From Clostridia bacterium (GTDB lineage Bacteria > Bacillota > Clostridia > Christensenellales > Borkfalkiaceae), in contig JAJQDC010000003.1 of assembly GCA_021202395.1 (NCBI GenBank), positions 8,187 to 51,926 on the forward strand: a stretch of DNA of 43,740 bases. Direction: 5' to 3'. The stretch's first letter is position 1, and each line of letters starts with the position of its first letter. Below the pieces are notes generated by a model that searched no databases, was not told the DNA's origin, and was given only the letters and a program-made list of their open reading frames with translations. The position numbers and the translations under genes are program-made. Positions 7,567 through 21,603 of this stretch are shown piece by piece.

Positions 7567-8874
7567 TTATTTTAAACCAAGGCGCTTTTTTTGTGCAAGA
7601 ATGTGCATTGCGCACTCTATACGCTTTTTCATCATAGCGCAGGTTATGGGGTAGGGCGTTTGTATGTCGCCCATAAAATTGTAGTTGTTTGCGCTGCATC
7701 CGCCGCTGCAGATAAACTTTGCAAAGCAATCTTCACACCCCTTGCGGGTGAACAGGCAGGAATTTGCAAACGTGCCCCTTACATCTGCGTCAAGCGTGTT
7801 GCTGTAAACGCTGCCCATCAAAAACTTTTTATTGCCCACAAACTGGTGGCAGGGATAAAGGTCGCCGTTGGGCGCTACCGAAAAATATTCGTTGCCCGCG
7901 CCGCAGGCAGATACCCTTTTAGAAAGGCAGGGTCCCCCTTCAAGATCTATATTGAAGTGGAAGAAGTTAAAGCCCTTACCTGCCTTAAGGTAATCAAGGT
8001 AACGTTCGCAAAGCTCTTCGTATTCGGCGCAGATCTGCGGCAGGTGTTCTTCCCTTATCTGCAGATCGGGTATATCCGTTACCACAGGTTCCATAGATAT
8101 GCTGTCGAACCCGCTGTCGGCAAGGAACAGTACGTCTTTGGAAAAGTCAAGATTCTTTGCCGTAAACGTTCCGCGGACGTAGTAATTTTTATCGCCCCGC
8201 GAGCGGACAAAGCGCTGTATGTTGGGGAACACCACGTCAAAGCTGCCCTTACCGTTGACCGTTTTGCGGATGGCATCGTGCACTTCCTTTCTGCCGTCTA
8301 AGCTTAAAACCACGTTTTCCATCTCTTCATTGAAAAACTTTTCGGCATCGGCATTAAGAAGCACGCCGTTGGTTGTGGTGGTAAAAAGAAACTTTTTGCC
8401 GTATTTGTTACCCTGTTCCCTGGCGTAAGCAACGGTTTGCTTTATGGTATCAAGGCACATAAGCGGTTCGCCGCCGAAGAAGTCGGCTTCTAACACCTTG
8501 CGGTTGCCGCTGTTTAATATAAGAAAATCTATAGCTTTTTTTGCCGTTTCAAGGCTCATGAACTCACGCTGTGCGTGGTAAGCGCCTTCGTCGGCAAAGC
8601 AGTAACGGCACCGCAGGTTGCAGTCGTGGCAGATGTGTATGCAGAGCGCTTTTACTTCTGAAGACTTTGCGGGGTAAGTTTTTACTTCTTCGGCATACAG
8701 AAGATTCTGCCCGGTAAGGGTATCTACGTCGGACTTTATTTCTTTCACCTTTTCTGGTGAAATGCCGCCTTCCCCCTTTAAATAAGCCGCTGTCAGGCTG
8801 TCGCACTCGTGCAGGCTGCCGCTGCCCGTGTCGTATATGTAGTTGTAATTTTTGTAACTGAAAACATGTATCAT
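7567..8874 (-). CDS. scfB: Radical SAM SPASM maturase of the SCIFF peptide
   Basis: This enzyme forms thioether (sulfur-to-alpha-carbon) bonds in the six-cysteine SCIFF precursor. The radical SAM cluster motif CNLRCRYC gives C85, C89 and C92, followed by an S-adenosylmethionine-binding GGEP stretch (FFGGEPLMC). The C-terminal SPASM/twitch region is rich in cysteines: CGAGNEYFSVAPNGDLYPC near 335-355, then CxxCFAKFICSGGC and a late ITC. The N-terminal 70 residues, starting IHVFSYKNYNY, are the peptide-recognition part typical of this family. At 435 residues the length is normal. It lies 75 bp downstream of the precursor gene scfA, separated by a hairpin. The gene pair next to secD/yajC/tgt is the usual clostridial location. 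Confidence 0.95.
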   Translation of the reverse strand: MIHVFSYKNYNYIYDTGSGSLHECDSLTAAYLKGEGGISPEKVKEIKSDVDTLTGQNLLYAEEVKTYPAKSSEVKALCIHICHDCNLRCRYCFADEGAYHAQREFMSLETAKKAIDFLILNSGNRKVLEADFFGGEPLMCLDTIKQTVAYAREQGNKYGKKFLFTTTTNGVLLNADAEKFFNEEMENVVLSLDGRKEVHDAIRKTVNGKGSFDVVFPNIQRFVRSRGDKNYYVRGTFTAKNLDFSKDVLFLADSGFDSISMEPVVTDIPDLQIREEHLPQICAEYEELCERYLDYLKAGKGFNFFHFNIDLEGGPCLSKRVSACGAGNEYFSVAPNGDLYPCHQFVGNKKFLMGSVYSNTLDADVRGTFANSCLFTRKGCEDCFAKFICSGGCSANNYNFMGDIQTPYPITCAMMKKRIECAMHILAQKKRLGLK

Positions 8875-19688: not shown

Positions 19689-19710
19689 GGCAGCGGGTTG
19701 CACCGCTGCC
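19689..19710 (-). terminator. Intrinsic terminator of the sigma-factor cluster
   Basis: GGCAGCGG/CCGCTGCC (8 bp, 6-base loop) is followed by TTTTTTAT on the minus strand, directly after the stop at 19716. Confidence 0.85.
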
Positions 19711-19715
19711 GCAAT

Positions 19716-20090
19716 TTATATTTTATTATCTTTTATCTTTAAAAGGACTTCTACCGCGCCGTCGCGGAAAGACACGTTACCGCCGCTGATGGTCTTTACT
19801 ATATAAAGCCCCCTGCCGCGTTCGGCAAACACGTCGGGAACGGACTGCGGTTCTATTGCCCCCGCAGTATGCGGCGACGAAACGGTAATTATAATATTTT
19901 TTCCGCTGATTTTACCGCAGAAATCTGCACGCTCGCCAAGGTGCACAAGCACGTTTGATATAAGCTCGCAGGATACAAGGCGGCTGTCAAAAATATCGTC
20001 TTCACCCACGTTAGACTGCCTTAAAAAATCTGAAAAAGCCTTAAGGCTGTCGTTCATATCTTTTAAATTGTCAACGCTGAAAGTAATCAT
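19716..20090 (-). CDS. RsbW/SpoIIAB-like histidine-kinase-type ATPase (anti-sigma candidate)
   Basis: The 124-residue GHKL-fold protein is cotranscribed with a sigma factor. The N-box is kept (SCELISNVLVH, with the E-x3-N spacing) and so is the GRGLYIVKTI glycine box. The usual D-x-G-x-G box is replaced by SSPHTAGAI, so ATP binding may be altered. By family and position it is a candidate anti-sigma factor/kinase. Its ATG overlaps the sigma stop by 4 bp (ATGA), indicating translational coupling. A second, differently degenerate relative lies upstream of the sigma gene. Confidence 0.8.
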   Translation of the reverse strand: MITFSVDNLKDMNDSLKAFSDFLRQSNVGEDDIFDSRLVSCELISNVLVHLGERADFCGKISGKNIIITVSSPHTAGAIEPQSVPDVFAERGRGLYIVKTISGGNVSFRDGAVEVLLKIKDNKI

Positions 20091-20815
20091 TGCGACAATG
20101 CGTCCTTTAATTTTTCTATAATTTTACGCTCGGCGCGGGACACAAACATCTGGCTTACGCCAAGCTGCCTGCCCACTTCTGCCTGAGACTTGCCCTGCAC
20201 AAAGCGCAGATTTACCACCTGCTGTTCTATGGGATCAAGTTTTTTAATCTCTTCTTTAAGAGCCTGGGCGTCGTCTAACTTTTCGTACATGTTTTCGGGG
20301 TCGGGTATAACGTCGTATAAAAGCCCGTCGCTGTCTTCGCCCTGTACGGTTGCATCAAGGCTTACGGGGGTATGGCATTCCATAGCCTCCATAACGCTTT
20401 CTTCCGATTCCCCGAGCGCCGCCGCTATCTGGTGCACGGTGGGCTTTGCGCCGTTTTCTTTATAATAGTCGTTGGTGTACGCTTTTATTTTTGAATTGAG
20501 CGTGTATATCCTGCGGGGGAGCCTTACCGAACGGGAATAATCGCGGAAGTAGTTTTTTATCATGCCCGTGATTGTGGGGGTTATGTACGTGGTAAAGCGG
20601 TTGCCCATATCGGGGTCAAATTTTTCTACGCCGAAAATAAGGGCTTCTGAAGCGACCTGAAGCAGATCGTCATATTCCACCCCCCTGCCGGCAAACTTTT
20701 TTGCAAGTATTTCGGCAATGTATAAATAATTTTCCACGAGCTTGTTGCGTATTTTTACGTCGCCCGTTTTGCGGTACTCGCGGAAAAGTTCTTCTGCCTG
20801 TTCGTTAGTCATCAT
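20087..20815 (-). CDS. SigB/SigF-type RNA polymerase sigma factor
   Basis: The 242-residue sigma-70 family protein belongs to the group 3 (SigB/SigF/SigG) type. Region 2 shows the GVEYDDLLQVASEALIFGVE and FDPDMGNRFTTYITPTITG stretches and the promoter-melting RDYSRSVRLPRR motif. Region 3 covers GAKPTVHQIAAALGESEESV, and region 4 is a helix-turn-helix (QGKSQAEVGRQLGVSQMFVS). The order STAS protein, ATPase-like protein, sigma, ATPase-like protein resembles sporulation spoIIA or stress sigB operons. Promoter targets and whether it acts in sporulation or stress cannot be told here. The start overlaps the upstream gene by 4 bp. Confidence 0.93.
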   Translation of the reverse strand: MMTNEQAEELFREYRKTGDVKIRNKLVENYLYIAEILAKKFAGRGVEYDDLLQVASEALIFGVEKFDPDMGNRFTTYITPTITGMIKNYFRDYSRSVRLPRRIYTLNSKIKAYTNDYYKENGAKPTVHQIAAALGESEESVMEAMECHTPVSLDATVQGEDSDGLLYDVIPDPENMYEKLDDAQALKEEIKKLDPIEQQVVNLRFVQGKSQAEVGRQLGVSQMFVSRAERKIIEKLKDALSQ

Positions 20816-21162
20816 AATTCTAAGGTTACCGAACTTATTACGTTGCCGCTCTTTTTAAAAGAACAGCTTGTTACAAGAGCACCTATAAGCGCAAGCGAAA
20901 GTTCGTTGTCGCCTTCTGCAAGCGCACTGCCCCCTTCGCCCGTTACGCATGCCTTTACTCCGCCGTTTACGCAAAGGCTTGCCTTCATATGCTTAAAGCC
21001 GTTGTTTTTTAATATAAGCGCGCTTTCGCTTACGCACACTTTAAAGTCTTCGGCTGCGTCTACATCTTTTTCTGCAATGGTGCATACGGCGCCCGCCGCA
21101 AGGCGCAATGCGGTAAAATATTTATCGTCTGCCAGATCGAACTCTATTACCAAATCGTTCAT
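20812..21162 (-). CDS. Degenerate RsbW-like protein upstream of the sigma factor
   Basis: The 116-residue protein has the general RsbW layout: an N-terminal strand (LVIEFDLADDKYF), an ALRLAAGAV helix, and VCVSESALIL at the N-box position. The N-box asparagine four residues after the glutamate is missing (isoleucine instead), and the glycine boxes are reduced to TGEGGS, so it is unlikely to be a normal kinase. It may be a binding-only regulator. It lies between the STAS gene (one-base overlap) and the sigma gene (4-bp overlap). The family call is tentative. Confidence 0.55.
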   Translation of the reverse strand: MNDLVIEFDLADDKYFTALRLAAGAVCTIAEKDVDAAEDFKVCVSESALILKNNGFKHMKASLCVNGGVKACVTGEGGSALAEGDNELSLALIGALVTSCSFKKSGNVISSVTLEL

Positions 21163-21467
21163 CAGTCTATCTCCATAATGGTGTCAAGGGCGCAAACGTG
21201 GAATACCCTTTTTACGTTCTTTTGCACGTTCTTTAAAGAAAGTTTATAGCCGCTCTCTTTAACGTGCTTGAATATTTTTACAAACGTGCCCAGGGCGGTG
21301 CTGTCTATAAAGGTGAGCGCTGTACAGTCAAACTCTATATCCTTTTTGTCGTGGCTGTATATGGCGTTTACCTGGGCATAAAAATCTTCTGAAGAAGAGG
21401 AATCTATTTCGCCGTATAAAGCAATTACAAGCTTTTCTTCGGCAGATATAAGTTTTACGTTTTGCAT
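21162..21467 (-). CDS. STAS-domain anti-anti-sigma factor (RsbV/SpoIIAA type)
   Basis: The 101-residue single STAS domain has the FIDSTALG motif, with S56 as the expected phosphorylation site preceded by D55. Members of this family free a sigma factor by binding its anti-sigma kinase, and are switched off when that kinase phosphorylates the serine. It is first in the four-gene cluster. An AAAGGAG ribosome-binding site precedes the ATG. Confidence 0.92.
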   Translation of the reverse strand: MQNVKLISAEEKLVIALYGEIDSSSSEDFYAQVNAIYSHDKKDIEFDCTALTFIDSTALGTFVKIFKHVKESGYKLSLKNVQKNVKRVFHVCALDTIMEID

Positions 21468-21574: not shown

Positions 21575-21603
21575 ATTTTACATTATTTTGTGTTAATTGT
21601 CAA
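21575..21603 (-). promoter_or_regulatory. Sigma-A promoter of the sigma cluster
   Basis: On the minus strand TTGACA (21598-21603) and TAAAAT (21575-21580) are 17 bp apart. The housekeeping-type boxes mean the cluster is not obviously autoregulated from this promoter. It is divergent from the gltA promoter. Confidence 0.75.

Follow-up and report, generated by a model that had tools for sequence, protein, structure and literature searches.

The window analyzed here, a 43,740-nt stretch of DNA from a Clostridia bacterium, contains an operon whose four genes probably encode a partner switch that is split between two GHKL proteins. The operon lies on the minus strand and runs from a STAS anti-sigma antagonist to a pseudo-GHKL protein (X), a sigma factor and a second, RsbW-like GHKL protein (W). 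In the reading that we favor, X would bind the sigma factor and the STAS protein, and W would act as the STAS kinase. Division of labor of this kind is itself already known; the novelty is a split partner switch within one operon that is widespread in Clostridia. Indeed, the split cassette is spread over 22 families of this class and is not a single-locus oddity. If correctly interpreted, it constitutes a natural dissection of a two-function regulator, with the binding surface in one protein and catalysis in the other.

A preliminary description of this locus had listed a STAS protein, an ATPase-like protein, a sigma factor and another ATPase-like protein coupled by overlaps of 1–4 bp. These coordinates are correct, and the successive overlaps measure 1, 4, and 4 bp. 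The STAS antagonist (RsbV/SpoIIAA-like, 101 aa; 21162..21467, minus strand) was recognized by the Pfam STAS model (61.6 bits) and by TIGR00377 (67 bits). It is followed by X (116 aa; 20812..21162, minus strand), which lacks an ATP site and is predicted to bind sigma and STAS; X was assigned from its structural model, its match to the RsbW fold and three invariant residues (R20, D39, and E46). The sigma factor is probably of the SigB/SigF/SigG family (242 aa; 20087..20815, minus strand; TIGR02980), and W (124 aa; 19716..20090, minus strand) was assigned to the RsbW-like GHKL proteins from its model, its match to the SpoIIAB fold, its similarity to HATPase_c_2 and the alignment of the genus. Directly 3′ of W, a hairpin with an 8-bp stem (7 G-C pairs) and a TTTTTT tail resembles an intrinsic terminator (19689..19710, minus strand). 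The best reading is that STAS, X, sigma, and W form one operon.

The promoter of this operon is less clear. A site upstream of the STAS gene (21575..21603, minus strand) presents 11 matches out of 12 to a housekeeping-type promoter (TTGACA, spacing of 17, TAAAAT), but this candidate is only suggestive since promoter-like sites were equally frequent in shuffled sequences (four found vs. 3.8 expected). We searched by eye for a SigB-type promoter 5′ of the operon and saw the housekeeping-type site instead; we therefore make no claim that the sigma factor is autoregulated. To estimate selection on the coding sequences, 75 distinct loci were compared in 92 pairs, of which the 25 closest were used; pairs with dS outside 0.1–2 were excluded from the medians. 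The sigma and STAS genes had a median dN/dS of 0.050 and 0.062, respectively, and the values for X and W were 0.107 and 0.109. These low ratios indicate that both degenerate proteins, X and W, are maintained by purifying selection.

Structural models built with AlphaFold from 30 sequences of the genus were confident for X (mean pLDDT of 94.6) and for W (86.7). The GHKL fold of both proteins, on which the preliminary description hinged, was recovered: X was closest to RsbW (6m37; Z = 16.7, rmsd of 1.7 over 104 residues) and W to SpoIIAB (1til; Z = 14.4, rmsd of 2.5 over 119 residues), whereas other, more distant GHKL domains reached Z-scores of only 8 to 9 against these two models. The top Foldseek match of X was UsfX, the anti-SigF protein of Mycobacterium tuberculosis. 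Aligning the profiles of X and W with one another also gave the register that was expected (probability 79, E = 1.6e-5). Profiles were required for such comparisons, as searches of solved structures with the single sequences of X and W returned nothing useful. The X of the window had no match in Pfam or NCBIfam, and 19 of 27 of its relatives matched HATPase_c_2 at an E-value of up to 1 (best value 4.7e-10). For W, the same comparison yielded E = 3.7e-4 and 20.9 bits, which is below the cut-off of 27.4, and all 20 members of a wide set of W proteins matched this model at an E-value of up to 1.

The two proteins have lost different parts of the GHKL domain. As noted in the preliminary description, X lacks the N-box asparagine, with a hydrophobic residue found four positions after the glutamate, and presents no true glycine boxes in the alignment of the genus. 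Across the order, neither the N-box asparagine nor the aspartate of the G1 box was found in any X (0/27 for both) and an intact ATP site in X was never seen. In contrast, exactly three residues were invariant in all 27 sequences: R20, D39, and E46. In SpoIIAB, Arg20 touches both SigF and SpoIIAA. The three residues of X align with Arg23, Asp42, and Glu49 of RsbW (HMMER) with equal spacing of 19 and 7, and these RsbW residues are described as contacting Asp23, Arg84/Arg87, and the phosphorylated Ser56 of RsbV (PMC7340262). The same trend was observed on a broader scale: the ATP site was broken in the X of 117 out of 129 SigB-like loci, and each of these 117 proteins retained the arginine, the aspartate and the glutamate. 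Overall, X is predicted to hold the sigma factor and the STAS protein, and it would probably neither bind ATP nor act as a kinase.

W presents the mirror image. It had been described as keeping the N-box and the GRGL box and lacking DxGxG, and the alignment of the genus agrees: Glu42 and Asn46 of the N-box (ELxxN) and the GRG at positions 92–94 are retained in the W of the window, and DxGxG is absent. Six residues were invariant in 20 W sequences (E42, L43, N46, G92, R93, and G94; 20/20), and these correspond to the catalytic and phosphate-binding parts of the domain. Over the SigB-like loci, the glutamate and the asparagine were found in 99 of 99 W proteins and the G2 box in 98 of 99, the remaining sequence being incomplete. 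The partner-contact residues were much less frequent (arginine in 13/99 and aspartate in 30/99), with the contact aspartate found at 22 of 50 loci in the family of the window. A split of binding and kinase roles is well supported by these patterns, the catalytic residues being retained in W and the partner-contact residues in X.

The sigma factor scored best against TIGR02980 (SigBFG) among all models, with 209 bits for a cut-off of 234. Its identification as SigF was ruled out by the NCBIfam equivalog model (157.8 bits for a cut-off of 321), and the SigG and SigB equivalogs were likewise ruled out, both models being far below their NCBIfam cut-offs. In a sigma tree built from 69 of 138 loci with a quick method, the sigma factors of spoIIA operons formed a separate side (support 93). 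We also looked in the sigma factor for a counterpart of Asp148 of SigF, an acidic residue that clashes at the contact site, and no conserved one was found at the same column; a neighboring residue, Glu139, is nearly invariant. The predicted contact between X and sigma is not confirmed by this alignment. The STAS protein presents the motifs GEID (positions 19–22) and IDST (54–57), the latter containing the presumed phospho-acceptor Ser56, and I54, D55, S56, and T57 were invariant in 30 out of 30 sequences of the genus. In the STAS proteins of one other family (f38; L212, L243, and L244), GEID is kept and the phospho-site pattern DS[ST] was not matched in a plain text search.

X was present in 32 of the 37 genomes of the same genus. 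Loci were obtained for 30 of these 32 genomes, and all of them have kept the four-gene order (30/30), a conservation that the preliminary description had proposed to examine. The five genomes without X are all incomplete or fragmented drafts; in three of them (G001, G010, and G017), a search with the sigma factor found the spoIIA operon and no cassette. Four of these five drafts encode a PP2C phosphatase of the size of the candidate discussed below, and the missing X would fit assembly gaps. X was found in 53 of 297 genomes of the order, and with a wider profile, 142 of the 391 genomes of the class proved to contain X or relatives of RsbW. These searches ruled out that the pair is peculiar to a single genus. 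We then surveyed neighborhoods in about 60 of the 142 matching genomes, a non-random choice made up of the best-scoring genomes plus an additional one or two from each family. In total, the neighborhoods of 138 loci from 45 families were examined; nine families were set aside as spoIIA, and one locus (L232) was dropped because it ends with its contig and lacks a sigma gene.

The presence of W appears to follow the state of X. Among the 24 families where a STAS gene accompanies an X with a broken ATP site, W adjoins the sigma gene in 22. In contrast, W was found in none of the nine families whose upstream protein has a canonical ATP site (0/9; Fisher's exact test of 22/24 vs. 0/9, p = 1.4e-6, uncorrected for descent). 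W was also missing from the three families with a broken X and no STAS gene (0/3). However, the sigma tree requires only three to four changes to explain this distribution and a test of independent pairs had no power. These comparisons suggest that W tracks the loss of the ATP site of X, a strong pattern built on few evolutionary events. The nine families with a single canonical RsbW, a situation that had been expected to speak against a functional pair, represent an alternative state without W and do not refute the pairing.

When a broken X and a STAS gene lacked an adjacent W, a W-like protein was encoded elsewhere in all five genomes searched (four clear cases and one weak); in f63 and f78, for instance, W lies at a distance from X. 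No W-like protein was found in the six genomes with a broken X and no STAS gene (0/6). In the 12 genomes with a canonical X, the search recovered mostly RsbW itself, with a single extra W-like protein in total. At several loci of f4 and f23 (L154 and L156–L162) and at one locus of f34 (L211), X and sigma stand together as a minimal pair with no STAS or W gene adjoining.

Several features suggest how the cassette might operate. X would keep the sigma factor inactive and would also dock the STAS antagonist. W, which is likely still a kinase in most relatives, would phosphorylate the serine of STAS and thereby keep the antagonist off X. A stress-responsive PP2C phosphatase would strip this phosphate, and the unphosphorylated STAS protein would then bind X and release sigma. 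We infer all the binding and phosphorylation steps of this scheme from the observed gene order, modeled folds, residue conservation, selection and co-occurrence. Besides SpoIIE, the genome encodes one other PP2C protein, a PAS-PP2C of about 400 aa located outside the cassette, which would be the best candidate for the phosphatase. A PP2C of this size was found in 19 of the 20 X-carrying family members tested and in none of three genomes from genera without X.

The preliminary description had suggested that the pair splits binding and kinase roles. The residue split and the co-occurrence of W and X argue for such a division, but the kinase half is taken, for the family of the window, from relatives with an intact site, and this role is uncertain there. 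Indeed, the G1 box (DxGxG) was found in none of the 50 W loci of this family (f1) and in none of the three loci of f29 and f2, whereas its aspartate and glycine were present at 45 of 46 loci outside these three families, the exception being an incomplete sequence. These counts are based on alignment columns, and the 50 loci of f1 come from 48 genomes (L118 repeats L015, and L167 repeats L119). The remainder of the ATP site (E, N, and GRG) is intact in the family of the window. It is the loss of the G1 box that renders the activity of W uncertain in this family: W might be a changed kinase, it might bind another ligand, or SpoIIAB might have taken over its role. We still consider it probable, as part of the split-switch reading, that W descends from the kinase that phosphorylates STAS. 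The repeated loss of the G1 box alone raises a clear biochemical question.

Among the alternatives, the one that we regard as somewhat unlikely, though deserving serious attention, is that W became a pseudo-kinase in the family of the window, serving another ligand or docking only, and that STAS is phosphorylated by the SpoIIAB of the nearby spoIIA operon. The uniform loss of G1 (50/50) with full retention of E, N, and GRG under purifying selection would fit this reading, as would the fact that Ser56 of STAS is still invariant throughout the genus (30/30). In addition, SpoIIAB was detected above the curated cut-off in 49 of the 50 genomes of this family with X. However, the remaining genome (G025) has X and W with no SpoIIAB match. 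More generally, SpoIIAB was found in 52 of 54 genomes from families with a W lacking G1 relative to seven of 17 genomes from other families of the order, but this association decides nothing because nearly all the former genomes belong to one clade. The loss of the box in f29 and f2 also makes a changed but working kinase equally imaginable. As a separate observation, the locus of G025 (L031) is the only one of the 30 loci of the genus with a wide gap between sigma and W (334 bp), and G025 is the sole genome of the family with X where SpoIIAB was not found. It is also conceivable, but improbable in our view, that W in this family still functions as a regulator but has ceased to read ATP and binds another nucleotide or phosphate compound: the adenine-recognizing G1 box is gone and the Mg/phosphate half (Glu42, Asn46, and GRG) is intact, leaving room for a different ligand. 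If true, the sigma factor would respond to a different metabolite.

Alternatively, X and W might form one mixed dimer, as the preliminary description also envisaged, in which X would provide the contact surface and W the catalytic site, since dimers of the SpoIIAB type grip one sigma factor between their two protomers. The first helix and strand of RsbW are described as mediating its dimerization (PMC7340262), and RsbW3 of Mycobacterium smegmatis is proposed to inactivate RsbW1 by forming a heterodimer with it (PMC7693655). The genes of X and W flank the sigma gene, each overlapping it by 4 bp. Nevertheless, pairs of X and sigma exist without any W in f4, f23, and f34, and the remote position of W in f63 and f78 indicates that X does not always need an adjacent W; we consider the mixed dimer unlikely. 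Finally, the operon might be a decaying and functionless duplicate of spoIIA or sigB. Parts of the ATP site are lost in both GHKL proteins and W scores below the Pfam cut-off, as would be expected from decay. However, the median dN/dS of 0.05 to 0.11 in all four genes refutes this scenario, which we consider extremely improbable: the order is intact at all 30 loci of the genus and the retained residues are the functional ones. We therefore retain the split partner switch as the preferred reading.

The cassette resembles several characterized systems. In Bacillus subtilis, the sigB operon presents in the same order a STAS antagonist, a GHKL anti-sigma factor and a SigB-type sigma factor, but RsbW combines there the anti-sigma and kinase functions that two proteins would share here. 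To our knowledge, no second GHKL gene is found 3′ of sigma in the B. subtilis operon. X is nearest to B. subtilis RsbW both by sequence profile and by fold. The spoIIA operon (SpoIIAA, SpoIIAB, and SigF) likewise matches the first three genes of the cassette in order, although SpoIIAB retains its whole ATP site (6/6 sequences), unlike X. UsfX of M. tuberculosis is like X in that it keeps the arginine, aspartate and glutamate, and the alignment places an arginine at the position of its N-box asparagine. X scored higher against RsbW (69.7 bits) than against UsfX (42 bits), which suggests that the Clostridia lost the ATP site of X independently of UsfX.

The closest functional parallel is the SigF switch of M. 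smegmatis (RsbW1, RsbW2, RsbW3, RsfA, and RsfB), where a non-kinase anti-sigma factor is likewise accompanied by a separate GHKL kinase: RsbW1 is described as an anti-sigma factor without kinase activity and RsbW2 as a kinase that does not bind sigma (PMC7693655). According to the same account, these genes occupy separate loci, in contrast to the single operon of the Clostridia, and RsbW2 is reported with the N, G1, and G2 boxes, whereas the W of the window lacks G1. The sigB operon of Clostridioides difficile offers another comparison. It is described as transcribed from a housekeeping promoter and served by a separate PP2C phosphatase, RsbZ (PMC10210984). The cassette would share with it a clostridial partner switch with a housekeeping-type promoter, the latter being only suggestive in our case, but the single RsbW of C. 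difficile is reported to be both kinase and anti-sigma factor (PMC10210984), in contrast to the two proteins of the cassette. Our search of the open-licence literature found no paper that describes such a four-gene operon in Clostridia.

The cassette, which recurs in many families of Clostridia from the gut and of others, predicts the control of a SigB-like sigma factor in many uncultured Clostridia. A plain annotation as "RsbW kinase" would be misleading for either GHKL gene. The genome also contains a canonical spoIIA operon (SpoIIAA, SpoIIAB, and SigF; L001, G000:C10:2570-4051) about 24 kb away and outside the window, and SpoIIE is encoded elsewhere (L163). With a complete spoIIA operon and SpoIIE, the organism may sporulate despite a draft genome of 1.83 Mb. 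In f31, no SpoIIAB was detected above the cut-off in three genomes (G111, G130, and G090), each of which presented 16 to 22 weaker matches to the SpoIIAB model; these probably represent many GHKL proteins, with histidine kinases and proteins resembling RsbW among them. Finally, the window encodes a radical SAM protein of 435 aa whose C-terminus is rich in cysteines (7567-8874, minus strand); this protein is reminiscent of maturases of cysteine-rich peptides.
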